Assembly: GCA_021733925.1 (NCBI GenBank)
Contig: JAIPJY010000063.1
Coordinates: forward strand, 1-37,709
DNA: 37,709 nt
Origin: Prosthecobacter sp.
GTDB lineage: Bacteria; Verrucomicrobiota; Verrucomicrobiia; Verrucomicrobiales; Verrucomicrobiaceae
Direction of reading: 5' to 3'
Positions 3,014-26,647 of this stretch are shown piece after piece. The position numbers and the translations under genes were made by a program. Under the pieces are notes generated by a model. It had not been told where the DNA came from. It worked only from the letters and a program-made list of their open reading frames with translations, and did no database searches. Numbering within the stretch: position 1 is the first letter of the stretch; each line of letters starts with the position of its first letter.

Positions 3014-3535
3014 CTCTTAGCGCCGCGGCGTCAGGTGCGGTGTCAGTCGACAGCCCTGCGGCGGCGGATCGAGCACGAAGCAGCGCACGAGGAGCGGCTG
3101 CGGATCACACGCGAGTTTCACGATACGCTGGGGCAAGGGCTTGCGGGGCTTTCGCTCAGGCTCAAAACTGTGCAGGCACGCGGCATTGACGAAAAGAGCG
3201 GGCAGTTGCTGCGGGCCTCGCTCGGGCTGGTGTCGCAGATTCAGGCAGAGACACGCAGCCTCGTCTCGGAGCTGCGCGAGCCCTCCCAGGAGAGTGCGGA
3301 CATTGTGGCGGCGTTGCGCGAGATCATTGCCGACGACGGACACGGCTTCAATCCCGAGGTGCCGCGCGGCGGAGGAGGAGGGCACTTCGGCTGCATCGGC
3401 ATCGAGGTGCGTTGCGAAGAGCTCGGCACCAGCGCGCGTTGGCAATCCGCGCCGGACCAGGGCACGACGATTGAGATCGAGCTGTCGCTGGAAGAACCCG
3501 CCGAAGCGATCCGGCGCGGCATCATCAAAGTCTAG
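3014..3535 (+). pseudogene. Sensor histidine kinase relic with deleted ATPase core
   Basis: The frame opens after a stop at 3011-3013 and encodes a piece of a NarL/DegS-type (HisKA_3) kinase. LRRRIEHEAAHEERLRIT followed by REFHDTLGQGLAGLSLRL is the dimerization helix with the phospho-accepting histidine. About 70 residues later the frame jumps straight to DDGHGFNPE and GHFGCIGIEVRCEELG and then PDQGTTIEIELSL, which are the late G-box parts of the HATPase domain. The N-box and the first half of the ATPase domain are missing, as are all sensor and membrane segments. This is best read as a decayed remnant with an internal deletion. No partner response regulator is adjacent. Confidence 0.72.
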
Positions 3536-3623
3536 CCACCGCACCCGTCATCGAGATCAAACTCACGACCTTGCGCGCGCGAGCTGCCACCAGATCCTTC
3601 AGTCAGGGCGAGTTCCTTGCAAT

Positions 3624-3670
3624 AAAGTGTCGACACTTTGTGTTTGTTGAGCTGAAAGTGTCGACACTTT
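3624..3670. promoter_or_regulatory. Tandem palindromic operators, likely bound by the GntR domain
   Basis: The perfect 16-bp palindrome AAAGTGTCGACACTTT occurs twice, at 3624-3639 and 3655-3670. The centres are 31 bp apart, about three helical turns, so two dimers would sit on the same DNA face. The second copy ends 11 bp before the ATG at 3682. GntR-family proteins usually bind short palindromes near their own gene, so autoregulation is the natural inference. Confidence 0.8.
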
Positions 3671-3681
3671 AATCCCCTCCC

Positions 3682-6600
3682 ATGCCCAAAGTTCACTTCC
3701 AGCCCCGGCGCAACCTGTCCGATGAGATCGTCCTGCAACTGCGCGGAAACATCATCTCCGGCGTTTTCAAGCCGGGTGAAGCCCTCGCTGAACCGGTGCT
3801 GGCGAAACGCTTTGGCGTCAGCCGCGCTCCAGTGCGTGAAGCCATGATCGAGCTGGAACGCGTCGGTCTGGTTCAGTTCGAGACGTCTGGACGGACTCGG
3901 GTCAGGGTGCTGGAGGAAAAGGACATCGCCGAGATCCTCGAAGCCCGGATCGCCCTGGAGTCCATGGGGGCGCGACTGGCCGCCATGCGTTGGACTGCGG
4001 AAGACAGCCGCTGGATCGAGAACAGCATCGCGGGACAGGAGAAGGCTTTGACCGGCGCGGAGTTCAGCCAGCTGGACATCGCGATGCATGAATACATCAT
4101 GAAGCGCAGCGGGAATGAACGGCTGGTCGTGCTCTGGCAATGCGTCCGCTGGCAGTTCGAGATGGCGCTGGCTTTCATCCACCGGCTTCAGGAAAAGCTG
4201 GCTTCCGATCTCCGCCGCTTCAGCGTGGACGGGCATTGGAAGGTGCTTGAGACACTGGCCTCCCGTCAGCCGGAATCGGCCGCCAAAATGATGAGCCAGC
4301 ACATCACAGGCTCGCTGGAATGGTCCATCCCCGAACCCTCGGAACCGCCCCCTGCAGCCGCCCCCCTTCCCCGGAAAAGCCGCTCCGCAAAACTGGTCCG
4401 CGGATGGTTCGCCTGGTTGAGCCTGTCTTCGCTCGCGCTGGGATTGGGTGGTGGCGTCCCGGCCCTGGCGTCCAACGGCGTGCAGCCTGCTGCGGCGACC
4501 TTTTTTGAAAAGGAGGTGCGCCCGATCCTCGTGAACCGGTGTTTTGACTGCCACAGCAGCACAAAGCAGAAGGGCGGTCTGCGGGTGGACCATCTCGGCT
4601 ACCTGAAAACAGGCGGAGATACCGGCCCGGCCCTGGTGCCCGGGAACCCGGAGGGCTCCGCGCTCATGGAGGCCGTGCGCTACGCGAACAAAGACTTCCA
4701 GATGCCGCCGAAGCAGAAGATGCCGGACGCGGAAATCGCAGTTCTTGAAAAATGGATCCAGATGGGAGCGCCGTGGCCCGAAGATGCCTCGAAAAAGGTC
4801 GTGGTGACAGAGGGAGGCTTCACGGAGGAGCAGCGGAATTACTGGTTCTTCAAACCGGTGGCCAAGGTGTCGCCGCCGATGGCTGGCGGGAAATGGCCGC
4901 GCAATGACATCGACCGCTTCATCGCGGAGAAGCAGGCGGAATGGAAGCTCACCCCCGCGCCGGAGGCGGACAGGCATGAACTGGTGCGTCGGCTGTATTT
5001 TGACCTTCACGGCCTGCCGCCGACGAAGCAGCAGATCGACGCCTTTGTGAACGACAAGGCCCCGCATGCCTATGAAAGGCTCGTGGATGAGCTGCTGGCG
5101 AGCCCGCGCTATGGCGAACGCTGGGCGCAGCATTGGCTGGACCTCGTGCGCTATGCGGAGAGCGATGGTTACAACGCGGACGCGTATCGCGCGTCTGTCT
5201 GGCCGTATCGCGACTACGTCATCAAATCGCTCAACGACGACAAGCCCTACGACCAGTTCGTGCGTGAACAGCTCGCGGGTGACGAGATTGCGCCGGATGA
5301 TCCGAACGTCCTCGTCGCCACCGCTTTCATGCGTCATCCGGTGTATGAGTACAACCTGCGCGACGTGCGTGGCCAGTGGGACACCATTCTCACCGACATG
5401 ACGGACACCACGGGCGAGCTCTTCCTCGGCCTGAGCATGGGCTGCGCGCACTGCCACAACCACAAGTTCGACCCCATCCTGCAAAAGGATTACTACCGCC
5501 TGCGGGCCTTTCTGGCACCGGTGAACTGGCGCGATGACATGACGCTGGCCACCCCGGCGGAGAAAAAGGCCTTTGCAGAACAGCAGGCCCAATGGGAGGC
5601 GGCCACCGCCGAAATCCGCGCCAAAATCAACACCCTCACGGAGCCGGCCATCCACGAGCTGGTTGAGGTCTGGCGCGTCAGCTTCAGCGAGGACTTGCAG
5701 GCCATGACCCACAAGCCTGCGGACCAACGCGACGCGCTGGAGAAACAACTCGCCGGACTTTGCGAGCGCCAGCTGGAATACGCGCGCACCACTTTCAATC
5801 CGACCACCCATCTGAAGTCGGACAAGGCCAGAGAGGAATACAAGGCGCTCCAGGAGGAGCTGAAGAAGTTCCAGCACCTGAAGCCGAAACCGCTGCTCCC
5901 CGCCTTCGTCGTCACGGATGCGGGACCCGCAGCACCTGCGACCACGCTGAAGACACGCAAAGGCGGGCAGGAGATCAAGCCAGGCTTCCTTTCCATCGTG
6001 GACCCGCGCCTGCCGCAGATCAAACCGACCCAGACCTCCACCGGACGCCGCAAGGCGCTGGCGGACTGGATCACGCGTCCAGACAACCAGCTCTCCACCC
6101 GTGTGATCGTGAACCGTGTGTGGCAGTATCATTTCGGGCGCGGCATCGTCGCGACGGCAAGCGAATTTGGCAGGCTGGGCGAGCTGCCAACACATCCCGA
6201 ATTGCTCGATGATCTCACGTCGAAATTCGTGGCCGGAGGCTGGCATCTCAAACCGCTGCATCGTGAGATCATGCTCTCCGCCACCTACCGCCAGACAGCG
6301 CGTCGCGAGCCGGACGGGACTGCGGCAAAGGTCGATCCGTCGAACCGCTTTCTGTGGCGCTTCCATCCGCGCCGTCTCGATGCGGAGCAGGTGCGCGACG
6401 CCCTGCTGGCGGTCAGCGGCGAGCTTGAGACGAAGCCTGGCGGTCCCGCCGGCGATGGCAATGGCCCGCGCCGCTCGATTTACACGATGAAGAAGCGCAA
6501 CAGCCCGAACGAGCTGCTGCGCGCCCTCGACATGCCTGCGGGTTTTACGAGCGCCTCCGAACGACAGAGCACCACGACGCCGACGCAGGCGCTGCAATTG

Positions 6601-7545
6601 TTCAATGGCGACTGGCTGCTTTCCCGCGCCCGCAAGCTCGCCTCCCGTGTGGCAGGCATTGACGATGCGTGGCTGGCTGTCTTCGGCCGCCCGCCAACGG
6701 ACGAGGAGCGGGGCACGGCGGAGTCCTTCCTGAAAAAACGCATGGGAAAGGCCACGGCGGCCCATGCCCACGCCGAGGCCGCCGCAAGTGGAGCTTCGGA
6801 CGGGGGCTTCAAAATCAACAGTCCGCACGAGCGTCTGCTGGTGAAATCCAGCGAGAAGGAGGGCGATGAATTCACCGTCGAGGCCGTCGTGAAACTCGAC
6901 AGCATCGACTCAAACGCCGAACTGCGCACGCTGGTCTCGCGTTGGGATGGCGGCAAGGGCAGCCTGGAATCCTTTGGCTGGAGCATCGACGTCACCGGCC
7001 AGAAATCGCGCTACAAGCCGCGCCACATCCTTATGCAGATCGTCGGCGAGGACGAGAACGCGAATATCGGCTATCAGGTGGTGCCTGCCAGCATCCACAT
7101 CGAAGTGGGACGCCGCTATCACCTCGTGGCGCGTGTTTCCTCCGCCCGTCACAACGTCACCTTCACCGTGCGTGATCTCGACACCCCCGGGGCCGTCGTG
7201 CAGTCCACCGTGGCACCGCTGGACCCTCTCTCGAAGATCAGCCAGGGCGCTTCGCCAGTCGTCCTCGGCGGGTTGAGCAAGCGCATGCCGACGAGGCAGT
7301 GGGATGGCCGGATCGAGGCCCTGCGCATCGTCCCGGGTTGCCTCGCTGACCACGCGCTCAACGCCGATCCCGCGAAGTGGAACGCCGGATTCGTCGTCTG
7401 GAATGCCGCTGATCCGCCGAGCCCGCAGTTCACCTGGAGCGGCGCCGGCTCCAGGGACTCCGAGGAGAACGATCCTTTCCGCCAGGCCATGAGCGACCTC
7501 TGCCAGGTGCTGCTGACCTCGAACGAATTCTTCTACCTTTATTAA
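3682..7545 (+). CDS. GntR/FCD regulator fused to PSCyt1-PSCyt2-PSD1 cytochrome protein
   Basis: One uninterrupted 1287-residue frame. Residues ~10-75 are a GntR winged helix (AEPVLAKRFGVSRAPVREAM) and ~80-215 an FCD-type ligand domain. After a Pro-rich linker, ~241-264 form a hydrophobic segment ending in PALAS, like a signal peptide or anchor. Then follow a planctomycete cytochrome domain (PSCyt1) with heme motif CFDCH at 287-291 and QMPPK as possible distal ligand, a DUF1549/PSCyt2 domain with a second CxxCH (CAHCH, 588-592), a DUF1553/PSD1 domain, and a LamG-like beta sandwich (~1040-1230) inserted before the usual PSD1 end SNEFFYLY. The families are normally separate genes. There is no ATG near the junction to start a separate cytochrome gene. 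The DNA-binding part would be cytoplasmic and the rest periplasmic; internal cleavage by signal peptidase is possible. It heads an operon with DUF1501 and an aldolase. Confidence 0.85.
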   Translation: MPKVHFQPRRNLSDEIVLQLRGNIISGVFKPGEALAEPVLAKRFGVSRAPVREAMIELERVGLVQFETSGRTRVRVLEEKDIAEILEARIALESMGARLAAMRWTAEDSRWIENSIAGQEKALTGAEFSQLDIAMHEYIMKRSGNERLVVLWQCVRWQFEMALAFIHRLQEKLASDLRRFSVDGHWKVLETLASRQPESAAKMMSQHITGSLEWSIPEPSEPPPAAAPLPRKSRSAKLVRGWFAWLSLSSLALGLGGGVPALASNGVQPAAATFFEKEVRPILVNRCFDCHSSTKQKGGLRVDHLGYLKTGGDTGPALVPGNPEGSALMEAVRYANKDFQMPPKQKMPDAEIAVLEKWIQMGAPWPEDASKKVVVTEGGFTEEQRNYWFFKPVAKVSPPMAGGKWPRNDIDRFIAEKQAEWKLTPAPEADRHELVRRLYFDLHGLPPTKQQIDAFVNDKAPHAYERLVDELLASPRYGERWAQHWLDLVRYAESDGYNADAYRASVWPYRDYVIKSLNDDKPYDQFVREQLAGDEIAPDDPNVLVATAFMRHPVYEYNLRDVRGQWDTILTDMTDTTGELFLGLSMGCAHCHNHKFDPILQKDYYRLRAFLAPVNWRDDMTLATPAEKKAFAEQQAQWEAATAEIRAKINTLTEPAIHELVEVWRVSFSEDLQAMTHKPADQRDALEKQLAGLCERQLEYARTTFNPTTHLKSDKAREEYKALQEELKKFQHLKPKPLLPAFVVTDAGPAAPATTLKTRKGGQEIKPGFLSIVDPRLPQIKPTQTSTGRRKALADWITRPDNQLSTRVIVNRVWQYHFGRGIVATASEFGRLGELPTHPELLDDLTSKFVAGGWHLKPLHREIMLSATYRQTARREPDGTAAKVDPSNRFLWRFHPRRLDAEQVRDALLAVSGELETKPGGPAGDGNGPRRSIYTMKKRNSPNELLRALDMPAGFTSASERQSTTTPTQALQLFNGDWLLSRARKLASRVAGIDDAWLAVFGRPPTDEERGTAESFLKKRMGKATAAHAHAEAAASGASDGGFKINSPHERLLVKSSEKEGDEFTVEAVVKLDSIDSNAELRTLVSRWDGGKGSLESFGWSIDVTGQKSRYKPRHILMQIVGEDENANIGYQVVPASIHIEVGRRYHLVARVSSARHNVTFTVRDLDTPGAVVQSTVAPLDPLSKISQGASPVVLGGLSKRMPTRQWDGRIEALRIVPGCLADHALNADPAKWNAGFVVWNAADPPSPQFTWSGAGSRDSEENDPFRQAMSDLCQVLLTSNEFFYLY

Positions 7546-7578
7546 ATCAAGACCGCGAACAACCAGCTTTCCAAGATT

Positions 7579-8976
7579 ATGCCCTGCCATCGTTACGATC
7601 TCCCCGCCTCGCGCCGCGACTTCCTGCAGACTGCCGGCTGCGGCTTTGGCGGCGTCGCGTTAGCCGCGCTCATGGGCAGCCAGGCCCAGGCCGCGCCGCT
7701 TCTGCCGCACCGCGCCGCCAGAACGAAAAACGTCATCTTCCTCTTTATGGAAGGCGGTCCCAGCCACCTGGACACCTTCGATTACAAGCCGCTGCTCAAC
7801 AAGCTGGCCGGACAATCGCTGCCCGCGAGTTTCGGGATGCCGCTCACGGCGGCGGGAGAGGGCAGGTCGCCTCTGCTCGAATGCAAACGCACCTGGAAGC
7901 AATACGGCCAGGGCGGCCTGTGGGTCTCCGACTGGTTCCCCCGCGTCGCACAGCATGCCGACGATCTCGCCATGATCCATTCCTGCGCCTCCAGCGGCAT
8001 CAACCACGCAGGCGGCGTGTGCTCGATGAACACGGGCTCCATCTTTGGCGGCCGCCCGTCGCTCGGCTCATGGGCCACTTATGGGCTCGGCACTGAGAAC
8101 AAAAACCTGCCCGCCTTTGTCGTCATCAAGGACAGCGAGGCCTCTGTCGTCAACGGCGTGCGCAACTGGGGCAACGGCTTCATGCCCGCCGTGTATCAGG
8201 GCGTCGAGTTCAACTCCGACGGCACGCCGATCAAATACCTCGACAACCCGAAAGGCGTCGATCGCCAGCGCCAGCGTGACAAGCTCGACCTCTTCGGCGC
8301 GCTCAACCGCAGCTTCAACGCCAGCCGCGCCAGCTTCACCGAACTCGACGCCCGCATCAAGAGCTGCGAACTCGCCTACCAAATGCAGGCCGAGGCTCCC
8401 GACGCGGTCGATCTAAGCAAGGAAACCGAGGCCACCAAGAAGCTCTACGGCATGGACGACAAATCCACCGCCACCTTTGGCCGCAACTGCCTCCTCGCCC
8501 GCCGCCTGGTCGAAAACGGCGTGCGCTTCGTGCAGCTCTACAGCGGTGCCGGCAGCAAGTGGGACAGCCACAACGGCATCGAAGTGAAGCACTCCAGTCT
8601 GTGCCATTCCGTCGATCAACCCATTGCGGGTCTTCTCGCGGACCTGAAGTCGCGCGGCATGCTCGATGAGACGCTCGTCATCTGGGGCGGCGAATTCGGA
8701 CGCACGCCGATGAGCGAACGTGGCGACGGTCGTGACCACAACCCCACGGGCTTCACCATGTGGATGGCTGGCGGCGGTGTGAAAGGCGGCCAAACCTACG
8801 GCGCCACGGACGATCTTGGCCTGTATGCCGTGGAAGATCGTCTGCACGTTCACGACATCCACGCGACGATTCTGCACCTGCTGGGCATCGACCATACCCA
8901 GCTCACCTACACCCACAAAGGACGGCCCGAGCGCATCGACCAGAACGAAGGCCATCCCTACACAAAACTGCTGTGA
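7579..8976 (+). CDS. DUF1501 protein with Tat signal
   Basis: A 465-residue exported protein of the DUF1501 family, distantly related to sulfatases/alkaline phosphatases. The N-terminus carries a twin-arginine signal (ASRRDFLQ, followed by a hydrophobic stretch and AQA cleavage site). Family landmarks are NVIFLFMEGGPSHLDTFD, ARRLVENGVRFVQLY and VIWGGEFGRTPMSE, with conserved His/Asp residues near HVHDIHATILHLLGIDH. In Planctomycetes and Verrucomicrobia these genes routinely sit directly after a PSCyt/PSD1 gene, as here with a 33-nt gap, and the pair is assumed to work together in the periplasm. The biochemical function is not established. Confidence 0.92.
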   Translation: MPCHRYDLPASRRDFLQTAGCGFGGVALAALMGSQAQAAPLLPHRAARTKNVIFLFMEGGPSHLDTFDYKPLLNKLAGQSLPASFGMPLTAAGEGRSPLLECKRTWKQYGQGGLWVSDWFPRVAQHADDLAMIHSCASSGINHAGGVCSMNTGSIFGGRPSLGSWATYGLGTENKNLPAFVVIKDSEASVVNGVRNWGNGFMPAVYQGVEFNSDGTPIKYLDNPKGVDRQRQRDKLDLFGALNRSFNASRASFTELDARIKSCELAYQMQAEAPDAVDLSKETEATKKLYGMDDKSTATFGRNCLLARRLVENGVRFVQLYSGAGSKWDSHNGIEVKHSSLCHSVDQPIAGLLADLKSRGMLDETLVIWGGEFGRTPMSERGDGRDHNPTGFTMWMAGGGVKGGQTYGATDDLGLYAVEDRLHVHDIHATILHLLGIDHTQLTYTHKGRPERIDQNEGHPYTKLL

Positions 8977-8999
8977 GCAGCCTGACCCATTTCCCTGAT

Positions 9000-9728
9000 A
9001 TGACCACCGCCGACACCCTTCGCCAACGTCACCTGCAGCTCGGCACCTGGCTGCAGACCGGCTCCCCCATCATCGCCGAACTCGCGGATGCGAGCGGCTT
9101 CGACTGGCTGCTCATCGACCTCGAACACGGCTGCGGCACCGAAACGATGGTGCTCCCGCAGCTTCAGGCCATACGCCGCGCCGCCGCCATCGTCCGCGTG
9201 GGTGCCCCGCATCCCGACCTCATCGCACGGGCGCTCGACTGGGGTGCCGCCGGCATCATGGTCCCGATGGTGTCCACTGCGGAGAAAGCCGAGGCTTGTG
9301 TGCGCGCGATGCAGTATCCGCCGCGTGGAGACCGTGGCCTGGCCCGCATGGTGCGCGCCTACAACTTCGGACTTGAACGCGAAACGGTGTCCCCGGTGTT
9401 TTTCGCCCAGATCGAGACGGTCGAAGGCGTGAAAAACGCGCATGCCATCGCCGCTGTGGAGGGTGTGGATGTGCTCTTTATCGGACCAATGGACCTGCAG
9501 CTCAACATCCAGTCCTATCCGCAGGACGCCACCCTCGACTACGCCGCCTGTCTGCGTGAAGTCGCCGCCGCCGCCAAATCCGCCGGCAAAGTCTGCGGCC
9601 TGCTCACGCGCCAGACCGACGACGCCGCTGCTCTCCAAGCACTCGGCTTCACACATCTCGCCATCGAGACCGACATCACCGTCATGCGCGAAGGCTACCG
9701 TCAGATCATCAAACCGCTGCGAGGTTGA
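9000..9728 (+). CDS. HpcH/HpaI-type aldolase
   Basis: A 242-residue class II (divalent-metal) aldolase of the HpcH/HpaI family, which cleaves 2-keto-3-hydroxy acids to pyruvate and an aldehyde. Seen are DLEHG with the catalytic base His43, Arg66 in VRVGAP, the YPPRGDRG loop (106-113), metal ligand Glu139 in QIET, and Asp165 in IGPMDL. The ATG at 9000 gives the canonical short N-terminus (LGTWLQTGSP); the frame stays open to 8760 only because it overlaps the DUF1501 gene. The gap to that gene is 23 nt, so it is the third gene of the operon. FCD-type regulators often sense small organic acids, which fits the fused regulator at the head, but the true substrate is unknown. Confidence 0.9.
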   Translation: MTTADTLRQRHLQLGTWLQTGSPIIAELADASGFDWLLIDLEHGCGTETMVLPQLQAIRRAAAIVRVGAPHPDLIARALDWGAAGIMVPMVSTAEKAEACVRAMQYPPRGDRGLARMVRAYNFGLERETVSPVFFAQIETVEGVKNAHAIAAVEGVDVLFIGPMDLQLNIQSYPQDATLDYAACLREVAAAAKSAGKVCGLLTRQTDDAAALQALGFTHLAIETDITVMREGYRQIIKPLRG

Positions 9729-9749
9729 GCTTCGTTGAAGAAACGAAGC
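9729..9749 (+). terminator. Hairpin at the end of the GntR-cytochrome operon
   Basis: GCTTCGTT (9729-9736) and AACGAAGC (9742-9749) form a perfect 8-bp stem with a 5-nt loop directly behind the aldolase stop codon. No T-run follows, so it may be a weak terminator or an RNA-stabilising hairpin. Confidence 0.5.
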
Positions 9750-9791
9750 CCGGCCATCATTCAAGTCACACCTGAGTTCGCTCCCGCTTAG

Positions 9792-10122
9792 TTCTACTTT
9801 GGTAAGTTATCAGAGGTCATAAAATCCATCGGGATGTTTTTCCTTCGGTATCACATCTTACGCCGTGGAATGTTCTTGGCAGGTTGCCATGGTCTTTCGT
9901 CATCCCATTCCGCTTTTCACCAGTCCCAACGGGACTGCGCATCATAGCGAAGGGTTGCCGAGCCTCAGCGAGGCTACCCTGGTACCGGACGTCAATCACC
10001 GGAAAGCAAACCCAGCGCCTTCGCCGCACACAACGCCCACCAGCAGCGTTTGCAAGAAGCTCCGCCGCGCTCAGTGCGTACCGCCAGCCCCCCCCAAACC
10101 CCGATAACTTACCAAAGTAGAA
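9792..10122. mobile_element. MITE-like element with 20-bp terminal inverted repeats, copy 2 (complete)
   Basis: TTCTACTTTGGTAAGTTATC at 9792-9811 is the exact reverse complement of 10103-10122. The element is bordered by TTAG on both sides (9788-9791, 10123-10126); a TA duplication with slightly longer arms is an equally good reading and would fit IS630/Tc1-type insertion. It encodes no protein. The interior is the dispersed core repeat seen at 1-282 and 33758-33942, with a C-run expanded to eight near 10088-10095. It sits between the aldolase operon and a truncated hydrolase gene. Confidence 0.8.
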
Positions 10123-10126
10123 TTAG

Positions 10127-10330
10127 GCAAGCTGTTGCCGCAGGCCGGCGCGACAGGGATATGCACTTTGGCACCGAGTCGAAGAACTGACAGGCAATGG
10201 CACGCATTTCGTCAGGGAAGTCGTGCGGCGCATCGGGATGCTCGACACGCACGCCATCCGGTTTGCCGTAGAGCTGGTAAACCTGCCTCGCTGCCGCCGC
10301 GATGCGGTCCACACATTGCCATTTGAAGTT
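10127..10330 (-). pseudogene. C-terminal fragment of an alpha/beta-hydrolase
   Basis: Read on the minus strand, the frame begins directly behind the stop codon of the DUF1080 gene and gives FKWQCVDRIAAAARQVYQLYGK and then VEHPDAPHDFPDEMRAIA. The HPDxxHDFPxxMR pattern matches the C-terminal end of esterase-like alpha/beta-hydrolases, the His of HDFP being the expected catalytic residue. The nucleophile and all N-terminal parts are absent. The frame runs into the MITE-like element at 10126 and stops inside it. It is a relic, lost on one side by deletion and probably disrupted on the other by the insertion. Confidence 0.65.
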
Positions 10331-11080
10331 TCAGCCGCCGGTCAGCTGCTTGATACGTATGTTGCGAAACTGCACCAGCGAGGCACCCCATTCCCCGTCC
10401 TTCCGTTCAGGATGCAGCTGCAGGGCCAGCGGTCCCTGCCGTGGAACTCCTGGTAGCTGGGCATCTTTGATGATCAGCTTGTCGTTGAGCGTAACTGTCA
10501 GGCGGTCGCCCTTCATGATGATGTGGAATGTGTTCCACTCGCCAATCGGTTTGTCAGCCTTCACCTTCGGTGTTACCCCGGCATGCACCTTGGCGTCAAA
10601 AGCTGGATCGGTCCGGTAGCCCCACACCTCACCTGAACCAACCGGCCAGCACCAGATGTTCACCTGCGACTTGTGCTGGCCGCGCAGGAAGACTCCAGAG
10701 TCTGTGTTGGGTGCTGCTACCGTCATCACGTTGCCTGAATCATCCTTCTGGTAGGAGCCATCTGGCAGAATGATTCGTGCTTTCTTGTTCACGAAAGGAC
10801 TCTCCTTGATGCGCCAGTCCACCCACAGCTCAAAGTCTGCGTATTCCTTCGTCGTCCACAGTTCCCTGTCGCCCTTGGCCTCCCCCTGGGGATTGCAGTC
10901 AATGACGCCATCCACGACGTTCCAATCGTGATTGCCGGGCTGCTTGGTGGTCCATCCTGTCAGATCCTTGCCGTTGAAAAGGGATACCATGCCCTGCGCT
11001 GCATCGGTGCCGGGTTCTGGATGAGCTGTGCTGATGAACAGCGCGAGGAGGAAAAGGGCTGTACGGATCGGATGATGCAT
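10331..11080 (-). CDS. Secreted DUF1080 (3-keto-disaccharide hydrolase-like) protein
   Basis: A 249-residue protein with an N-terminal signal peptide (MHHPIRTALFLLALFISTAHPE) and one DUF1080 domain: LFNGKDLTGW at the start, ELWTTKEYADFELWVDWRI, NTDSGVFLRG, and the closing FRNIRIKQL. DUF1080 has a concanavalin-like beta-sandwich fold; some members hydrolyse 3-keto-glycosides, but the activity is not predictable from sequence alone. The start at 11080 puts the signal peptide right at the N-terminus; an ATG ten codons upstream (11110) is possible. Longer open frame up to 11551 is shadow of the kinase gene. Nothing is seen in 11111-11288 except spacer. Confidence 0.85.
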   Translation of the reverse strand: MHHPIRTALFLLALFISTAHPEPGTDAAQGMVSLFNGKDLTGWTTKQPGNHDWNVVDGVIDCNPQGEAKGDRELWTTKEYADFELWVDWRIKESPFVNKKARIILPDGSYQKDDSGNVMTVAAPNTDSGVFLRGQHKSQVNIWCWPVGSGEVWGYRTDPAFDAKVHAGVTPKVKADKPIGEWNTFHIIMKGDRLTVTLNDKLIIKDAQLPGVPRQGPLALQLHPERKDGEWGASLVQFRNIRIKQLTGG

Positions 11081-13448: not shown

Positions 13449-13476
13449 CGGTGCCGGAGTGTGGCGCAATACGCTT

Positions 13477-15762
13477 ATGAACAGGTCATCACATTGTTGG
13501 AGAGGCCGTGGCGTTGCAAGCGTCCTCTTGCCTTTCCTTTTTCCGTCTCTGCTGCTGGCAGGGGGCGGACAGTGGACCGTCGTGGCCTGGAACAACCTCG
13601 GCATGCATTGCATGGACGACGATTATTCCGTGTTCTCCATCCTGCCACCGTTCAACACGATCAACGCGCAGGTGATGGACGCTGCGGGGCGCCTGATCAC
13701 CGATCCGGCGGCCGCAGGCATCACGGTCACCTATGAGGCCGTCGCAACTCCAGACGGGTCGATCAACACGACATCGTTCGGGAAGACGAACTTCTACGAC
13801 TTCGCGGCGGTGCTCTTCGGCGCGAATGTGGCCGTGGACCAGGGGCTGGCCGGCAAGTCGATGCCGGGCGCGATCAACTCGCCTCAGGCGATGTCGTGGG
13901 ACGCCGGAATGAAGTGGTTCGAGGCGGCGGGCATTCCGATCACGCCGACGGACGACGCGGGCCGGCACAATCCGTATCCGCTCATGCGCATCTCGGTGAA
14001 GAATGCCTCGAACGTCCTGCTGGCCAGCGCGGACATCGTGCTGCCGGTGTCGGATGAAATGGACTGCCGCGCGTGCCACAAGTCCGGCTCCGGTGCCGCC
14101 GCCATGCCTGCCGCAGGCTGGGTCAATGATCCGAGCGACAAGCGCGACTTCCGTCTGAACATCCTGCGTCTGCACGATGAAAAGAATGCCGCCGATCCCA
14201 ACTACGCCACGGCGCTCGCGGCGACGGGTTATCCGGCGCAGGGGCTGTATTACAGCGTCACGAGCACGAACAAGCAGGTGCTGTGCGCCGCGTGTCATGC
14301 GTCCGAGGCGCTGGGCACAGGCGGTGCTGCCGGTGTGAAGCCGCTGACCGCCGCGATCCATGCGCGGCACGCCACGGTCATCAACCCGACGAACGGGCTC
14401 CAGCTCGACAACGTGCTCAGCCGCAACTCCTGCTATCTCTGCCATCCCGGCTCGACCACACGCTGCCTGCGCGGCGCGATGGGCAGCGCGGTGAACGCGA
14501 GCGATGGATCGCTCGTGATGCAATGCCAGAGCTGTCACGGACATATGAGCGATGTGGGCAGCACTGCGCGCACAGGCTGGCTCATGGAGCCGAACTGCCA
14601 GGCCTGCCACAGCGGCGATGCCGAGGCGAATGCGGGCTCGGTCCGTTTCACGTCCGTCTTCACGGCGCCAGGCGTGATGCGCGTTCCGACGAACCAGCGC
14701 TTTGCCACGAATGCGGACACGCCGGCGGCGGGGCTGTCGCTGTTTCGTTTTTCAAAGGGGCATGGTGGCCTCGTTTGCAGCGCGTGCCACGGCAGCACCC
14801 ATGCGGAGTACCCTTCGTTGCACCGCGACGACAATCTGTACTCCTGGAACAAGCAGGGGCATCGCGGCAAGCTCGCGGACTGCACCGTTTGTCATCCGTC
14901 GATGCCCTCGAACAGCGTCGGCGGCCCGCATGGCATCCACCCCATCGGCAGCAAGACCTGGGTGAAGGACCATGCGGACATCGCCCGCGCCATCAGCCCC
15001 AACTACACCGCATGCCGTGAATGCCACGGCGCCGACCTGCGCGGCACGGCGTTGTCGCGTGCGCAGGCGGACCGGGCTTTGAGCACGAAGTTCGGGCCGT
15101 TCACGGTGAAGCGTGGCATGGAGGTGAGCTGCTACTACTGCCACAACGGCCCCGGCAGCAGCAACGCCAGCACGCACGTCGGCCCCACCGTGGCGGACGC
15201 ACAGCTTGCGGTGCCATTAAACACGCCCACGAGCATCACGCTCAGCGCCAGCGGCACGAGTCCACAGCTTCGTATCATCCAGCAGCCCACGCACGGCACG
15301 GTGGGCATCGCGGCGAAGGTGGCGACGTATTTTCCAGATGGCGCCTACCAGGGTCCGGATGTGTTCACGTATATCGCGAGTGATTCGGGCAGCTTTGTCG
15401 ATTCGCAACCTGCCACCGTGTCCGTGATCGTCGGCACCACGGACTACCAGCGCGACTCGGACGGCGACTGCTTGAGCGACTGGCTCGAATACGCCCTCGG
15501 ACTTGACCCCTTGCAGCCCAGCCTGCGGCTGGAGCATCAGATCGAAAACATCGGCGGCACTTCCTATCTGACGCTGCGCGTTCCCCGCAGTCCCATGCGT
15601 CCACCGGAAATGACCACGACCATCAAAGTGTCCGGAGATCTGCAAAACTGGACGCCGGCAACGATCCTCAACGACACCGCCACCGAACTCAAAGCGCGCG
15701 ACACCACCGGCTCCGACGCCGCGCCCGCGCGATTCATGCGCATCGAAGCCAGCCGACCATGA
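13477..15762 (+). CDS. Secreted nine-heme cytochrome c with Ig-like and TSP3 tail
   Basis: A 761-residue protein with a signal peptide (hydrophobic VASVLLPFLFPSLLLAG). A ~170-residue N-terminal domain has the run VAWNNLGMHCMDDDYSVFSI. Nine CxxCH heme motifs start at residues 197, 270, 319, 350, 374, 434, 469, 513 and 552. After the hemes come a cadherin/Ig-like domain (PTHGTVGIAAKVATYFPDG), a calcium-binding-like segment DSDGDCLSDWLEYALGLDP at 661 and a beta-rich tail ending RFMRIEASRP. Multiheme c-type proteins carry electrons outside the cytoplasm; the tail suggests cell-surface location, so extracellular electron transfer is plausible but unproven. The ATG at 13477 is preferred over GTG 13459 because it keeps the 51-nt spacing to the upstream element. 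Its stop overlaps the sigma factor start (ATGA). Confidence 0.88.
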   Translation: MNRSSHCWRGRGVASVLLPFLFPSLLLAGGGQWTVVAWNNLGMHCMDDDYSVFSILPPFNTINAQVMDAAGRLITDPAAAGITVTYEAVATPDGSINTTSFGKTNFYDFAAVLFGANVAVDQGLAGKSMPGAINSPQAMSWDAGMKWFEAAGIPITPTDDAGRHNPYPLMRISVKNASNVLLASADIVLPVSDEMDCRACHKSGSGAAAMPAAGWVNDPSDKRDFRLNILRLHDEKNAADPNYATALAATGYPAQGLYYSVTSTNKQVLCAACHASEALGTGGAAGVKPLTAAIHARHATVINPTNGLQLDNVLSRNSCYLCHPGSTTRCLRGAMGSAVNASDGSLVMQCQSCHGHMSDVGSTARTGWLMEPNCQACHSGDAEANAGSVRFTSVFTAPGVMRVPTNQRFATNADTPAAGLSLFRFSKGHGGLVCSACHGSTHAEYPSLHRDDNLYSWNKQGHRGKLADCTVCHPSMPSNSVGGPHGIHPIGSKTWVKDHADIARAISPNYTACRECHGADLRGTALSRAQADRALSTKFGPFTVKRGMEVSCYYCHNGPGSSNASTHVGPTVADAQLAVPLNTPTSITLSASGTSPQLRIIQQPTHGTVGIAAKVATYFPDGAYQGPDVFTYIASDSGSFVDSQPATVSVIVGTTDYQRDSDGDCLSDWLEYALGLDPLQPSLRLEHQIENIGGTSYLTLRVPRSPMRPPEMTTTIKVSGDLQNWTPATILNDTATELKARDTTGSDAAPARFMRIEASRP

Positions 15763-18863: not shown

Positions 18864-18891
18864 TTGGGGTGACTGATGATGCAATGTGGGA

Positions 18892-21800
18892 ATGAACTTA
18901 TTGCTTATCCGCCAGGGAACTACGGGACTGTTTGCAGGGCTTGCCAGCCTGCTGCTCATGTTTAGTCCGCTCCAGAACGCGGAAGGCAGCATCGCCTACG
19001 GCAGCATCAACAACTTCGACACGGTCAACGACACTGGCAAGGAGGGCCACGGTTTTGAAATCGAACTCGATGACTGCCACTCCACCGACATCACCTACAC
19101 CTACAACTACAACCATTATGGGGTGCCGGAGATCACGGAGGACAACACCGATCCGGCGCATCCGAAGGTCTTCATCCGCTGGCAGAGCAAGAAAAAACCA
19201 GACGGGAGCTGGGCGGCTTATACCGCCATTCCAGCCGGCCCGATCCCGCCGACGCAGGGGCATCAGTTCACCAATCCAAACGTGAACTTCGGCGGCGAGC
19301 ATTTCGGCGTGGGTTATCGGAAACAGCCCAGTGCGGTGCTTTACAACTGGCTCGTGGACAACGGTGGCGGAACACTGGTGCGCGGCGGTGCGGTGCAGGT
19401 TTCGACGCCCACGTTCACCTACATTCCTCCTGCGGGTGGTGCGCCTGCGCAGGTGCAGGCTGTGATCGCGCCGCCCCCGCCGCCTGCGCCGCCGCCGAAG
19501 GAATTTGGCAAGGCGGTGTGGATGAAGGAAATCAAAACCACCACGCATAACGCCAACAAGGTGAAGCTGCGCGAACTGGTCTCCGACGATCCCAACGACC
19601 CCAACGACAAAAACTGGAAGAACGGCGAACCCGATGAGGTCGAGGTGGAATGGCGCATCCTGCAGAAGAAAACCAGCGCGGCCGATGGCGGCCCGAACAA
19701 CAACGTTCCCGCTGCCGCTGAAGCGCTGCCAAACGGCAATGAAGTCGTCACACGGCGCTACGAGTTTTACAAATATACCGGCCCGCTGGATGCTGAAACG
19801 GGAGAGGCCAAGGGTGACGCCGTCGGTGCCGATGGCATGCACGGAACCGGCAGCGTGACGTATGCGGACCATTTTGACGGTGCGATCGGTGAATGGGTCA
19901 TCGTCACCACGGACATGGCCACGAAAGTTGTTGTGGGGGATTTCACCGGCGCGCAGATGGCCGCCGTCGATGTGAATGAGTCTGTTGGATTGATCGATCA
20001 CGCTGGCGAAGGCAAGGTGGGCAAGGCCTTTGCGCCGCGCACGGTGGTGGTCGCAGGCGCGCTGCCGTTCACAGCGTCGAAATCGGGCATCGTGCCGCCG
20101 GGGCTGACCTTTGACGAGGTCACGGGCGTGCTCTCTGGCACGCCGACCAACGCGGGCACCTTCAGCTTTGCCATCACCGCCAGCGATGGCGTGAATCCAG
20201 ACGTGCAAAAGAAGTATACGATGAACATCGCTGCTGCTGGTTTTGCACTGCCAGCACAGAGCTTGCTGGATACGTCCGCAGCGCCCGTGGGTGCGGGAAC
20301 GACCACTGGCGACGGCTCCTTTGACGTCGGCGCAAACGCCACCGTCTCCGCCGCACCCGCCGCAGGCTATTTGTTCCAGAACTGGACGGACAACGGCCAG
20401 ATCGTCAGCACGGACAGCAGTTACACGCTTGCCATGGACGTGAATCACTCGCTGGTGGCGAACTTCGTGCCGGACGTCATGCAGTGGTCCGTCACCACGA
20501 GCGCCTCATCCGCCGCAGGCGGCACCACAACGGGCGACGGCCTCGTCAATGATGGTGCGAGCACCACCGTCACCGCCACAGCGAATGCGGGCTACGGCTT
20601 CACAAACTGGACTGAGGGCGCAGCCATCGTGAGCACCAGCGCCAGCTACACTTTCAATGCCACGGCGGACCGCGTGCTGGTGGCGAACTTCTCCGCATTG
20701 CCGTCCTACACCGTGGGTACCAGTGCCGCACCTCTGGCAGGTGGCACGACGAGCGGGGACGGTGGCTTCATCAGCGGCAGCAGCGCCACCGTCGTGGCCA
20801 CGGCAAACGCGGGCTACTTTTTTGTCAACTGGACTGAGAACGGGACGCAGGTGAGCACGAATGCGAGCTACACCTTCAATGTGACCGCAAACCGCACGCT
20901 CGCGGCGAACTTCTCCGTCATCGGCAGCACCCTCCGCACGATCACGACGGCTGTTTCACCGGTGAACTCTGGCACGACCACCGGCGGTGGCTCGTATGCC
21001 GATGGCACCAGCATCACCGTGGTGGCGACAGCGGCTCCGGGCTACAAATTCAGCAAGTGGAAGCAGGGAGGCAGCAATGTGAGCAGCGCAGCGAGCTACA
21101 CCTTCACCGTCACTGCGGACACTGCTCTGGTGGCGACCTTCACACCGGTTTATTACATCACCGCGACGTCGAATCCGCCCGCAGGCGGCACCACGGAAGC
21201 GGACAGCCTCAGCTACAATTCGGGTGATGGCGGCAACCTCACAGCCTTTCCCACCGCTGGCTGGCAGTTGGTGAACTGGACGGAGAATGGCAACATCGTC
21301 GGCACTGCCACGACGTTTAGCTTCAGCAACGCACAGGCGAACCATGCCTATGTGGCGAACTTCGCACTCACCGGAGGTGTGAACATCTCCGCAAGCGCAG
21401 CCCCGGCGGCTGGAGGCACGACAAGCGGTGGAGGCAGCTACATGATCGGCGACAGCGTGACCGTGGATGCGGCTCCAAATGCGGGTTATGCCTTCGTGAA
21501 CTGGACCTCGGGTGGGAACATTGTCAGCACCAGCGGGAGCTACTCTTTCACCGCGAGCACGAACCGCGTGCTTGTCGCGAATTTCGCCGCTGCAAACACC
21601 ATCTCCACCAGCTCCGCGCCAGCGATCGGCGGCAGTACGAGCGGCGGTGGAGACTATGCCACCGGAGGAAGTGCCACCGTCACTGCGACGCCAGGGGCTG
21701 GTTACAGTTTCCTCAACTGGACGGATGGCGCGACCATCGCGAGCACGAGCGCCTCCTACACCTTCACCGTGAGCGCCAACCGCACCTTGGTGGCTCATTT

Positions 21801-24138
21801 TGTTTCCGGCTACACGATCTCAGCCGCTCCGAGTCCCACTTATGCGGGCAGCATCAATGGAGCCGGCATCGTCAATGCGGGCACGAGCGTCACCCTCTCT
21901 GCGACGGCCAATCCCGGCTACAATTTCGTCAATTGGACTGACGTGACTGGCACGGAGGTGAGTGCCAGTGCGAGCTACACCCTCACGGTGAACGACAATG
22001 TCACGCTGACGGCGAACTTTGCCGCCGCACCACTGAGCATTGACTTCGATTTTGACACCGCTGCGCCCGTTCCTGCAGTGGATGCTCCACTGCCGCTCAT
22101 CCAAACGCAAGCAGGTTACACGGTCACGTTTAGCTCACCGCTGGCAAATGCCTATAAGGTCACCACGGAGGCTGCAAGCGGGCGCGTGCTGTCGAAGTTT
22201 GGCGGCAACTACCTCGAACCGCTCGCGGACAATGCCACGCTCGTACTCCAGCTCGATCTTCCCGTCACCGGCGTGAGCATTGATTTTGCCACGGTGGAGG
22301 ATCTGAACGTCGCCGTGCCTGCCAATGTGCAGATCACCGCCTACGACACCTCCAGCGGTGTTCCAGTAAGTGTTGGCACAGGCATCGCCCACGGCACCGT
22401 CACTGCAGGCGATACGCTGCCCGTCGGCACCATCACCTTCAACTCAACGGGCGGCGCCTTTGACCGAATCGTGCTGCAACTGCCGGACGCGCCTGTCGGC
22501 GCGGTTCGTTTCCTCGTTGATAACATCCAGGTGAGCCCCGCATCGAGCACGGGAGGCACCATGACGCTGACCAATCCGAACTGGAACATCACGCTTTCAG
22601 ATTTCGGTTATTCGGATTTCCTGCTCGACAACACGCCCGGTTTTGTCGGTCGTGAGTATCTGTCTGGCGAGTGGGGCAGCGCGGTCGCTTACCAAGTCAA
22701 CGGCCAGACCCGGGCGCCCACCTGGCTGGACCCCAGCTTTCTCTACCCAGACTGGCAGACGAACTCAAACTTCCATGTCGTCACGGGCATCCATCTCGTG
22801 GGCGGCAATGCGGACGGCCTGCCCATCGCGGAATCGGTGATCGCCAGCAACGATCTCGAAATCACGCAGCGTTTTGAAATGGTGGACACCGTTGTGGGAA
22901 CACCCATGGGGGTCACGCCAGCCAGTTCCGCATCTGCGGGCACATCGATCAACAGCAATCGATACGTGATGAACCAGAGTTTCGTGGTGAAGAACATCAG
23001 CGGCGCCACGATCAGCAACCTGCAGTTGTTTCAACTTCTGCATGGGTTCATCTCCCAGCATGGTCAGTATGACAACCGCAGCTATGCCGGGAAGCTTTCG
23101 GAGTATCGATACGACGCCACCATGTCAGGGGTGGACACCAGCGCGGCTGGAACTGACAGCTCCAGCATCGGACTTGAGGATCTCATCGGGTTCCATGCCA
23201 AAGTGGCACCCACGGCTTTCGAGATCGGCAGCTATGGAACCGAGGGCAATGGGATTGACGATCATGTCACCGGCAAGCCTTCGGACGGTGTTCATCTGTC
23301 GATTGAGAACAACTGGCAGAGCGGACCGTATGCGGCGCGAATGGGACGCGACTCTTTCGCTCCAGCCAGCCCTTGGGTTGCAGGCGGCCAGCGCTGGGAC
23401 CTCGGCACGTTGGCTCCGGGGCAAAGTGCGAGCCTGGACATCGTGTTAAGCCTGCTCACCGGCACGAAGGTGGTCATTACCGGCGGCGGTTCCGGCGGCA
23501 CCGGCGGTGGTGGCAGCTGCAACGGCGGCTCCAAGCATGTTGGAGGGGTCGATTTCGAATTCGACGACATCAGTCAGGAGGGCACCTTCTTCGGTGAATA
23601 TTCCGAGGCTGATGACGCAGAAATGGAGGAACGCGTCGCCGAGGGTGAGTTTGCTCTGCCGACCGTCCAGACCCCGAATGCCACACGGAAGCAGTTGTGG
23701 AAGTTGAAATACAACGGCGAACACACAGGCAGCATCAAACTTAAATTTGCCTACGATCCGAGCCTGCTGCCGGCAGGCTACGATGAAAACCAGCTCGCCA
23801 TCTACCACTTCCGCAACGGCACCTGGGAAAAGCTGAGCTGCAAAGTGGACACTGAGAACAACGTCATCGAGGCCGTCAGCCCCAGCCTCTCGCCCTTCGT
23901 TCTCGGTGTGAACGACGTGGTCGTGAAACCAACGGTGCAGGTCTCCGTTTCCAATCCTGGGTCCCTTAACGTGAGCTGGCCCGATTCGTTCACCGGCTGG
24001 ACTCTGCAGGAGGCGGTGGATCTAAATCCATCGAGTTGGATTAATTCAACTCGTCCGATGACATCGTCGGGCGGCTACAACAGCGTGTTGGTTCCCATCA
24101 ACTCTGGCTCAAAGTTCTTCAGACTGCTGCGTCCTTAG
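18892..24138 (+). CDS. Giant secreted protein with eight InlB-type repeats
   Basis: A 1748-residue exported protein (signal sequence LLLIRQGTTGLFAGLASLLL). An N-terminal ~370-residue region unknown to me contains a Pro stretch (PPPPPAPPPKE). A putative Ig domain follows (PPGLTFDEVTGVLSGTPTNAG). Residues ~457-1043 hold eight ~73-residue divergent InlB B-repeats, each with AGGTTSGxG, a GYxFxNWTExG core and LVANF. A lectin-like beta domain (SIDFDFDTAAPVPA onward), a ~300-residue unassigned domain, a Gly/Ser linker (GGGSGGTGGGGSCNGGSKH) and an acidic/beta region follow. The last ~65 residues (WPDSFTGWTLQEAVDLNPSSW to FFRLLRP) match the tail of the 16355 product. The repeats are similar at protein level but drifted at DNA level. 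Likely a cell-surface or matrix protein. Confidence 0.87.
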   Translation: MNLLLIRQGTTGLFAGLASLLLMFSPLQNAEGSIAYGSINNFDTVNDTGKEGHGFEIELDDCHSTDITYTYNYNHYGVPEITEDNTDPAHPKVFIRWQSKKKPDGSWAAYTAIPAGPIPPTQGHQFTNPNVNFGGEHFGVGYRKQPSAVLYNWLVDNGGGTLVRGGAVQVSTPTFTYIPPAGGAPAQVQAVIAPPPPPAPPPKEFGKAVWMKEIKTTTHNANKVKLRELVSDDPNDPNDKNWKNGEPDEVEVEWRILQKKTSAADGGPNNNVPAAAEALPNGNEVVTRRYEFYKYTGPLDAETGEAKGDAVGADGMHGTGSVTYADHFDGAIGEWVIVTTDMATKVVVGDFTGAQMAAVDVNESVGLIDHAGEGKVGKAFAPRTVVVAGALPFTASKSGIVPPGLTFDEVTGVLSGTPTNAGTFSFAITASDGVNPDVQKKYTMNIAAAGFALPAQSLLDTSAAPVGAGTTTGDGSFDVGANATVSAAPAAGYLFQNWTDNGQIVSTDSSYTLAMDVNHSLVANFVPDVMQWSVTTSASSAAGGTTTGDGLVNDGASTTVTATANAGYGFTNWTEGAAIVSTSASYTFNATADRVLVANFSALPSYTVGTSAAPLAGGTTSGDGGFISGSSATVVATANAGYFFVNWTENGTQVSTNASYTFNVTANRTLAANFSVIGSTLRTITTAVSPVNSGTTTGGGSYADGTSITVVATAAPGYKFSKWKQGGSNVSSAASYTFTVTADTALVATFTPVYYITATSNPPAGGTTEADSLSYNSGDGGNLTAFPTAGWQLVNWTENGNIVGTATTFSFSNAQANHAYVANFALTGGVNISASAAPAAGGTTSGGGSYMIGDSVTVDAAPNAGYAFVNWTSGGNIVSTSGSYSFTASTNRVLVANFAAANTISTSSAPAIGGSTSGGGDYATGGSATVTATPGAGYSFLNWTDGATIASTSASYTFTVSANRTLVAHFVSGYTISAAPSPTYAGSINGAGIVNAGTSVTLSATANPGYNFVNWTDVTGTEVSASASYTLTVNDNVTLTANFAAAPLSIDFDFDTAAPVPAVDAPLPLIQTQAGYTVTFSSPLANAYKVTTEAASGRVLSKFGGNYLEPLADNATLVLQLDLPVTGVSIDFATVEDLNVAVPANVQITAYDTSSGVPVSVGTGIAHGTVTAGDTLPVGTITFNSTGGAFDRIVLQLPDAPVGAVRFLVDNIQVSPASSTGGTMTLTNPNWNITLSDFGYSDFLLDNTPGFVGREYLSGEWGSAVAYQVNGQTRAPTWLDPSFLYPDWQTNSNFHVVTGIHLVGGNADGLPIAESVIASNDLEITQRFEMVDTVVGTPMGVTPASSASAGTSINSNRYVMNQSFVVKNISGATISNLQLFQLLHGFISQHGQYDNRSYAGKLSEYRYDATMSGVDTSAAGTDSSSIGLEDLIGFHAKVAPTAFEIGSYGTEGNGIDDHVTGKPSDGVHLSIENNWQSGPYAARMGRDSFAPASPWVAGGQRWDLGTLAPGQSASLDIVLSLLTGTKVVITGGGSGGTGGGGSCNGGSKHVGGVDFEFDDISQEGTFFGEYSEADDAEMEERVAEGEFALPTVQTPNATRKQLWKLKYNGEHTGSIKLKFAYDPSLLPAGYDENQLAIYHFRNGTWEKLSCKVDTENNVIEAVSPSLSPFVLGVNDVVVKPTVQVSVSNPGSLNVSWPDSFTGWTLQEAVDLNPSSWINSTRPMTSSGGYNSVLVPINSGSKFFRLLRP

Positions 24139-25801: not shown

Positions 25802-26647
25802 TCAGGCCCTCAACGTGACGCGGCGGCGACGCAGGAGTACCAGGAGTCCCACCCCGCCGATGAGCACGGCGCTGCCCGGCTCTGGGATAGGTGCTGCGCC
25901 AGCTCCCAGGGTCCATTCTTCAAAACCTCCTGAAGCTGAGCCATCGATGCCTGTGCTCACCAAATCTCCACCGAACTTGCTATACAGGTACACGTAGTCG
26001 CTCCCTCGAGTGCCATTGAAGACGTCCAAGGGGATGAACATTCCCATGTCTGCCCCGCCACTGCCGCTGCTCACGCGGTTGTAGTCGAGCAACACGTAAC
26101 TCAACGTCTCTCCGACCGTGTTATCCAGAGAATACACCTGGTTCAAATTCGGAGTGTTCAGCATGCTGGCCAGGGTCGGGTAACTGGCTCCACTCACGAT
26201 CGAGGTGAAGATGCGCACGTCATCGAGCACCAAAAGATTATTGTCATTGCCTGGCTCGTTAATGTCCAGCAAGAATGGAACATACAAGGATCCTCCGATG
26301 TCCACCACATGGAGATCTGAGAACTGCAACTCGTAGTTGAATTGCGGCACCCGCTTCGTGTCCATGATGTTCGAGGCTGAAGTGTTATAACCTTGCTCAA
26401 CGCCAGTTTCCTGAATCGTCTCAAAGACGCCCTGGGTGTCCCGCGTGAAAATACCCGATCCGGAGGGACTGGACGTATCAACCGAAAATATGGCTCGGTT
26501 GATGACGCCCGATGTTACGGCGGGGTTTGACAAGTCGATCGACTGCGCCTGGCCAGCAATGGCGCTGAGCGCGAAGACCGTGATCCCTGCATAGAGACGG
26601 TAGAATTTCGAAGCATAAGCTTTCAACGTGATGAGGTGATGGTTCAT
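25802..26647 (-). CDS. PEP-CTERM sorting-signal protein
   Basis: A 281-residue exported protein. It has an N-terminal signal region (FYRLYAGITVFALSAIAGQAQS, Ala-x-Ala-like cleavage) and a classic C-terminal PEP-CTERM tripartite signal: PIPEPGSA, a hydrophobic helix (VLIGGVGLLVLL) and an RRRR cluster. PEP-CTERM proteins are processed by an exosortase in the inner membrane and released to the surface or matrix; no exosortase is in this window. The middle (~200 residues, VDIGGSLYVPFLLDINEPG and LDDVRIFTS) is beta-rich without a family I recognise. It is divergent from the secretion cluster that follows, separated by about 590 bp. Confidence 0.88.
   Translation of the reverse strand: MNHHLITLKAYASKFYRLYAGITVFALSAIAGQAQSIDLSNPAVTSGVINRAIFSVDTSSPSGSGIFTRDTQGVFETIQETGVEQGYNTSASNIMDTKRVPQFNYELQFSDLHVVDIGGSLYVPFLLDINEPGNDNNLLVLDDVRIFTSIVSGASYPTLASMLNTPNLNQVYSLDNTVGETLSYVLLDYNRVSSGSGGADMGMFIPLDVFNGTRGSDYVYLYSKFGGDLVSTGIDGSASGGFEEWTLGAGAAPIPEPGSAVLIGGVGLLVLLRRRRVTLRA

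Follow-up and report, generated by a model that had tools for sequence, protein, structure and literature searches.

Can a DNA-binding repressor and an exported cytochrome-type protein be made as one polypeptide? The question is raised by a contig of Prosthecobacter sp. (G000:C116; family Verrucomicrobiaceae), complete at 37,709 bases and called here the window, in which a single gene joins a GntR regulator with an FCD ligand-binding domain to a PSCyt1-PSCyt2-PSD1 protein. To our knowledge, the known members of the GntR/FCD subfamily are free, soluble proteins. In this study, we examine the fused gene, its relatives, its junction and its upstream region. The fusion is real and inherited, and represents a natural GntR protein that is probably membrane-bound.

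The fused gene and its domains

The frame begins with an ATG at 3682, ends with a stop codon at 7543-7545 and is uninterrupted, and all five Pfam domain matches in the encoded protein exceed their cut-offs. Its parts are listed below.

3682..7545, + strand: fused gene, GntR-FCD, signal segment and PSCyt1-PSCyt2-PSD1, 1287 aa (single open reading frame; Pfam)
3718..3903, + strand: GntR winged helix, residues 13-74 (Pfam PF00392, 4.5e-15; PDB fold matches)
3931..4308, + strand: FCD ligand-binding domain, residues 84-209 (Pfam PF07729, 2.6e-17; alignment)
4324..4404, + strand: linker, residues 215-241, Pro/Ala-rich and then basic (PRKSRSAKLVRG); structure model mostly of low confidence there
4405..4470, + strand: hydrophobic, signal-peptide-like segment, residues 242-263, with an A-L-A end before S264 (hydropathy; P-A-L-A also in the related genome G010)
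4540..4713, + strand: PSCyt1, residues 287-344, with the first CxxCH at 4540-4554 (Pfam, 3e-16)
4909..5523, + strand: PSCyt2 (DUF1549), residues 410-614, with the second CxxCH at 5443-5457 (Pfam, 3.2e-82)
6046..6729, + strand: PSD1 (DUF1553), residues 789-1016 (Pfam, 2.3e-80)

By both Pfam and fold, the N-terminal half is a winged helix followed by an FCD domain, the arrangement that defines the GntR/FCD subfamily. The C-terminal half has the PSCyt1-PSCyt2-PSD1 order, with a CxxCH motif in PSCyt1 (residues 287-291) and another in PSCyt2 (residues 588-592). PSCyt proteins typically carry an N-terminal signal peptide of their own; here the signal-like segment is internal, at residues 242-263.

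The fusion is real and inherited

A long frame of this kind could be an artefact if an error in sequencing or assembly concealed a stop or a frameshift between two genes. The junction does contain a run of six C, a classical site of indel errors, and most relatives are split. The decisive evidence comes from G010, a separate genome that is 85-88% identical to the window and that supplied the one further long frame when 48 genomes of the genus were searched with the GntR part (open frame 1129, running off the contig end). Its fused frame is visible for 1119 residues from the start codon before the contig ends, the C-terminus being unseen. G010 carries the same in-frame fusion with a diverged linker: over 58 linker and signal codons, 42 of 174 bases differ from the window, without an indel or a stop, which corresponds to 76% nucleotide and 62% amino-acid identity. 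The six-C run is missing from G010 and the frame is kept. Moreover, neither of the other forward frames is open across the window junction, as both contain stops. Because a second genome with 24% nucleotide divergence in the linker shares the in-frame fusion without indels, the fusion is not an assembly slip; the frameshift or missed-stop explanation is rejected on this conserved frame, and we give it next to no credence.

Comparison of the window with G010 also describes how the parts of the gene evolve. The ratio of nonsynonymous to synonymous substitution rates (dN/dS) is 0.41 for the GntR half and 0.17-0.26 for the PSCyt parts. Changes at the first, second and third codon positions number 5, 4 and 13 in the linker, where the third position is highest, and 4, 9 and 7 in the signal segment, where it is not.

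Fused and split relatives

Relatives of the GntR half were sought in 386 genomes of the order at an identity of at least 56% to the window, with at most 7 candidates scored per genome; many of these assemblies are drafts. The subfamily occurs at 17 loci in 16 genomes. Three loci are fused (the window, G010 and G066), 12 have GntR and PSCyt as separate genes in that order, and no PSCyt gene follows the regulator at the remaining two: in G008, where an aldolase gene comes directly next, and at the second GntR copy of G067. Among the 12 split pairs, eight share a 4-nt overlap (GTGA in seven, ATGA in one) and four have gaps of 25-73 nt. The PSCyt start codons of these pairs, chosen by eye, are GTG or ATG and lie just before a signal-like segment. 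In the overlapping pairs the PSCyt gene is out of the GntR frame, and fusion therefore needed both the loss of the stop codon and a net frame change. Within this GntR subfamily the fusion is a derived state and an exception: a conserved gene pair, with GntR in first place, has been merged.

In a tree of 26 GntR proteins, the window and G010 are sisters (support 99/96) with split orthologues around them, the surrounding forks being poorly resolved, and G066 falls outside the Verrucomicrobiaceae group. G066 is another fusion, with a PSCyt half of a different clade and a frame that runs off the contig end; in a tree of 18 PSCyt N-terminal parts it groups with the type found at C47 of the window's genome (100/100), and the window with the other type. 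Since different PSCyt halves were joined, these trees suggest that the fusion probably arose twice, independently, unless one half was later exchanged.

Wider searches yielded no further long fused frame in 387 genomes of the phylum (E 1e-30) or in 384 of the class (E 1e-45), although these searches also scored at most 7 candidates per genome and fusions may have been missed. Every candidate was scored in the genus and family searches. The C47-type GntR gave 48 matches in 68 family genomes; no frame exceeded 600 aa except the one in G066, which is included above. G064 has a 567-aa frame that was considered as a fusion and rejected, as it stops right after the GntR part and is followed by a DUF1501 gene. 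Viral origin was likewise rejected: 9 pattern stretches were found in viral contigs, none of them a relative.

These results bear on an earlier note on this DNA, made from the letters alone. Its reading of one frame with GntR-FCD, a signal segment and PSCyt1-PSCyt2-PSD1 with two CxxCH motifs agrees with the frame and with Pfam, and the segment does end in PALAS, as the junction sequence confirms. The note had looked to an indel or stop between 4300 and 4450, or to homologues that are always split, as signs that the fusion is false; neither was found, and the same architecture recurs elsewhere in Verrucomicrobiota, in G010 and G066.

The junction

At the junction (...SLEWSIPEPSEPPPAAAPLPRKSRSAKLVRGWFAWLSLSSLALGLGGGVPALA|SNG...), basic residues are followed by a hydrophobic run that closes with A-x-A, and the P-A-L-A before the presumed cleavage site is kept in both the window and G010. 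By the Wimley-White scale, the three fused proteins have stronger hydrophobic segments (-4.9 to -6.2) than any of the 7 split relatives compared (-3.5 to -4.8). When residues 1-390 were modelled with AlphaFold, confidence was good over most of 11-210 (lower at 161-180) and poor over most of 220-266. Window codons 205-266 contain no in-frame ATG or GTG, the TTG codons 246 and 255 being the only candidate starts. Because P-A-L-A is kept in G010, the most likely fate of the exported half appears to be cleavage by signal peptidase I after A263.

The regulatory half and its upstream palindromes

The GntR half appears intact. Its structure model matches solved FCD repressors over ~210 columns (Foldseek best E 3.6e-10), and 39 of the 50 matches listed fall below 1e-6, among them GntR-family proteins such as PmiR and TM0439. 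All 16 aligned sequences, the three fused ones included, share the FCD residues D132, H136, H185 and H207; we take this Asp-x3-His, His, His pattern to be the metal/carboxylate-site set of TM0439-type structures. Their invariance makes it probable that a small cytoplasmic carboxylate still serves as the ligand.

FCD repressors have palindromic operators near their own promoters, and TGTNNACA-type palindromes are known for FCD regulators. Two perfect 16-bp palindromes lie upstream of the fused gene, ending 11 and 42 bases before its start codon.

3624..3639, no strand: upstream palindrome 1, AAAGTGTCGACACTTT, probable operator (core upstream of GntR orthologues)
3655..3670, no strand: upstream palindrome 2, identical to the first and 31 bp later, start to start

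The mean chance expectation of such palindromes in the window is 0.01, and no further copy of the 16-bp sequence is present in the same genome at up to 2 mismatches. With one mismatch allowed, all 16 genomes that hold an orthologue, whether its gene is fused or split, have the core AASTGTCGACASTT upstream of a GntR orthologue. It has 34 sites in these genomes, 28 within ~60 bases upstream of an orthologue and 6 elsewhere; the reversed control pattern has 19 matches in total. On the whole, the palindromes look as a local autoregulator would leave them, and they are predicted to be its operator. A ligand that releases the repressor from AAAGTGTCGACACTTT would name the pathway, and the intact pocket, the conserved palindrome and the neighbouring aldolase described below provide the handle for finding it.

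Pairing of FCD regulators with PSCyt genes

The association extends beyond this locus. In the window's own genome (93% complete), one repressor type is tied to PSCyt genes: all five FCD matches stand directly upstream of one on the same strand, those at C66, C89, C85 and C47 overlapping it by ATGA and the fifth being the window fusion. Six further genomes gave 32 FCD matches, 30 of them with loci, and all 30 loci were read. A PSCyt gene follows the regulator in 4 of 4 cases in G033, 4 of 5 in G010 (one is the fusion, and the fifth regulator is cut off by a contig end), 2 of 3 in G012, 2 of 7 in G061 and 1 of 4 in G059. In G067 it follows directly in 2 of 9, two more regulators having DUF1501 next and two having no locus. 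Judged by these gene neighbourhoods, near-complete pairing is a trait of the window's genus and not of the whole family. At Chthoniobacter-type loci, an exported protein with CxxCH (motif read by eye) comes next after GntR in 8 of 9 examined, and one of these proteins contains PSCyt1, PSCyt3 and PSD2-5 by Pfam. These repressors thus seem mostly to serve PSCyt-type units, and gene overlap would be a natural step before fusion.

Two side observations arose among these loci. At L172, L180 and L184 (G059, G061 and G067), the gene after another FCD regulator encodes a conserved protein that starts with MKPIVQISLDLTNIDEAL. The records of L111 and L112 are titled Akkermansia muciniphila; their GntR genes group with Chthoniobacter, and the titles may be wrong.

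The exported half and its operon neighbours

The exported half aligns over nearly its whole length with free exported relatives, and its second CxxCH (C588, C591, H592) is invariant in 20 aligned sequences. The two motifs are candidate sites for covalent haem c. The model of the PSCyt2/PSD1 fold is weak (mean predicted local distance difference test score 62), with no PDB match at E 0.001, and weak matches to lectin-like folds only hint at a laminin-G-like piece at the C-terminus. Two genes follow on the same strand.

7579..8976, + strand: DUF1501 protein, the next gene (Pfam; conserved order)
9000..9728, + strand: HpcH/HpaI-type aldolase, the gene after DUF1501 (conserved order)

The PSCyt-DUF1501-HpcH order is conserved in relatives. 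The aldolase is of the HpaI/GarL type and matches no specific NCBIfam aldolase model above its cut-off. At 3065-4434 in G008 (L069), the GntR orthologue is followed by an HpcH aldolase gene with an ATGA overlap and with neither PSCyt nor DUF1501 between; regulator and aldolase thus remain linked where PSCyt is missing, as would be expected if the ligand came from the aldolase pathway. The aldolase gene and this arrangement together point to a ligand that may come from a sugar-acid or keto-acid pathway.

Other arrangements were seen. At 3923-11026 in G067 (L087), two GntR paralogues bracket one PSCyt-DUF1501-HpcH unit, and the conserved palindromes (one mismatch allowed) are upstream of the second GntR copy only. 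The window's genome also holds an unfused PSCyt-DUF1501 paralogue that is 73% identical and has its own start (G000:C47:170389-173478, L002), with no GntR gene in the 1.5 kb upstream.

Proposed mechanism and alternatives

We propose that the inherited fusion is a membrane-tethered local autorepressor whose exported half is released by signal peptidase, and give this reading a probability of about two in three. Both the stop codon and the frame offset would have disappeared in an ancestor shared by the window organism and G010, leaving a single polypeptide. Its N-terminal half would stay in the cytoplasm, dimerise and repress its own operon at the two palindromes near the start codon, and repression would be lifted when a small carboxylate of the pathway occupies the FCD pocket. 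The basic stretch and the hydrophobic segment would act as an internal signal peptide that directs the PSCyt half to the periplasm. A cut by signal peptidase I after A263 would then leave a repressor of ~263 residues tethered by the former signal peptide, and the mature exported protein would resemble the one made by the split relatives.

Several observations weigh against this proposal. By Kyte-Doolittle, the window segment (1.47) falls among the split relatives, which span 1.38-2.06, and by Wimley-White it is surpassed by the unfused paralogue C47:170389 (-6.5); a stable membrane anchor is therefore not assured. The AlphaFold model has no confident helix at residues 242-263, and G066 is without a clean A-x-A at the presumed cleavage site (by eye). 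Evidence for selection on the linker is modest: in null simulations with equal random changes, 34% remained stop-free and 10% reached the observed identity. Upstream, a promoter scan found no promoter-like site at the palindromes, and in G067 the palindromes precede the GntR copy without a PSCyt gene behind it.

One frame might still give two proteins, with translation of the exported half starting mainly at an internal site, as it did in the ancestors with split genes. In-frame GTG codons placed like a signal-peptide start exist at codon 239 in G010 and just before RKRRLGSLASKVILVLLLG in G066, and GTG or ATG is what split relatives use. In the window, however, codon 239 is GTC, and up to the end of the signal segment TTG 246 and 255 are the only starts left. 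No basic residue lies between these codons and A263, no purine run resembling a Shine-Dalgarno sequence precedes them (by eye), and coupling of termination to re-start was lost with the stop codon. We therefore regard internal initiation as unlikely. Alternatively, the chain might stay uncut and work like ToxR or CadC, as a genuine one-component sensor whose periplasmic haem half controls DNA binding across the membrane. This would account for exported-type domains behind a DNA-binding domain and a single hydrophobic segment, and transmembrane transcription regulators are widespread, 50,302 of them being counted across 9,673 genomes in one survey (PMC10269533). The earlier note had named such a regulator, with a periplasmic half that could bind heme or substrate, as one of two options. 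The sensor is nonetheless improbable: the FCD domain already offers a cytoplasmic ligand site with conserved residues, P-A-L-A is kept in G010, the palindrome is the same in split relatives, for which such tethering is impossible, and the exported half aligns almost fully with free exported proteins. In this analysis we found no evidence that the haem half senses for the GntR half, and the intact FCD suggests a small cytoplasmic molecule as the signal. The note's second option, a polyprotein cut after PALAS, fares better and would be favoured by the A-x-A end kept in the window and G010.

The fusion could also be a near-neutral accident that broke the regulation, with the GntR-free paralogue C47:170389 covering for the enzyme. 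That paralogue does exist, beside a DUF1501 gene, and selection on the linker is weak. Against this, both halves keep dN/dS values of 0.17-0.41 between the window and G010, the window palindromes are perfect, and fusion arose in a second GntR/PSCyt combination, which makes such an accident very improbable. A more speculative and improbable idea is that the fused protein is a cis-acting autorepressor: with the chain still being translated near its gene and threaded through Sec, the folded GntR half would be held at the membrane near its own operators, so that exported PSCyt molecules are counted singly and the operon is shut without a diffusing repressor. If so, repeated GntR-PSCyt mergers would have been selected for export-coupled feedback.

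Other features of the window

Upstream of the fusion, 3035-3535 holds a histidine-kinase remnant in which Pfam finds HisKA_3 only; three relatives align with it in two pieces ~50 extra residues apart, and the window copy seems to be without part of the ATPase domain. Farther downstream, 13459-15762 encodes a multihaem cytochrome-like exported protein with about nine CxxCH motifs (by eye), and 18886-24138 is a 1750-aa frame with many repeats of the GGTTSGDG...YSFVNWTENG type. An exported protein at 25802-26647 has the C-terminal tail IPEPGSAVLIGGVGLLVLLRRRR, which we take to be PEP-CTERM-like.

Comparison with known systems

Among the papers listed in open-licence PubMed Central literature, none was seen to describe a natural membrane-bound GntR protein; the one match for a membrane-bound or fused GntR concerned an engineered switch, and the one for gene fusion and overlapping genes was unrelated. 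Nothing in that literature linked DUF1549/DUF1553 with a fusion or a Prosthecobacter GntR with cytochrome c. Passages of a Rhodopirellula transcription paper that covers DUF1549, DUF1553 and GntR make no mention of a fusion. The survey of transmembrane regulators counts proteins with a DNA-binding domain and at least one transmembrane region in one chain; its main text does not name GntR, and its supplementary tables may list GntR cases (PMC10269533). The fused protein has the DNA-binding domain, and the two hydropathy scales disagree on the strength of its signal-peptide-like segment.

The fused protein shares a winged helix, an all-helical FCD domain and the Asp/His set with the FadR/VanR-like FCD repressors PmiR (7xp0), TM0439 (3sxy) and Atu1419/VanR (6za3), but has ~1070 further residues with an export signal. 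With the PSCyt1-PSCyt2-PSD1 proteins of Planctomycetes and Verrucomicrobia it shares the three domains, two CxxCH motifs and the DUF1501 neighbour, whereas its export signal is internal, behind a DNA-binding regulator. The overlapping GntR-PSCyt pairs of the same genome (for example C47:155157 and C85) have the same functions in the same order, presumably on one mRNA, yet give two polypeptides from genes with a 4-nt ATGA overlap and not one frame. ToxR, CadC and TcpP likewise combine a cytoplasmic DNA-binding domain, one hydrophobic segment and a large exported part in one polypeptide. In contrast to them, the fused protein is a GntR/FCD repressor with a cytoplasmic ligand domain of its own, its hydrophobic segment resembles a cleavable signal peptide, and its exported part is of cytochrome type and comes from an operon that the protein probably regulates itself.

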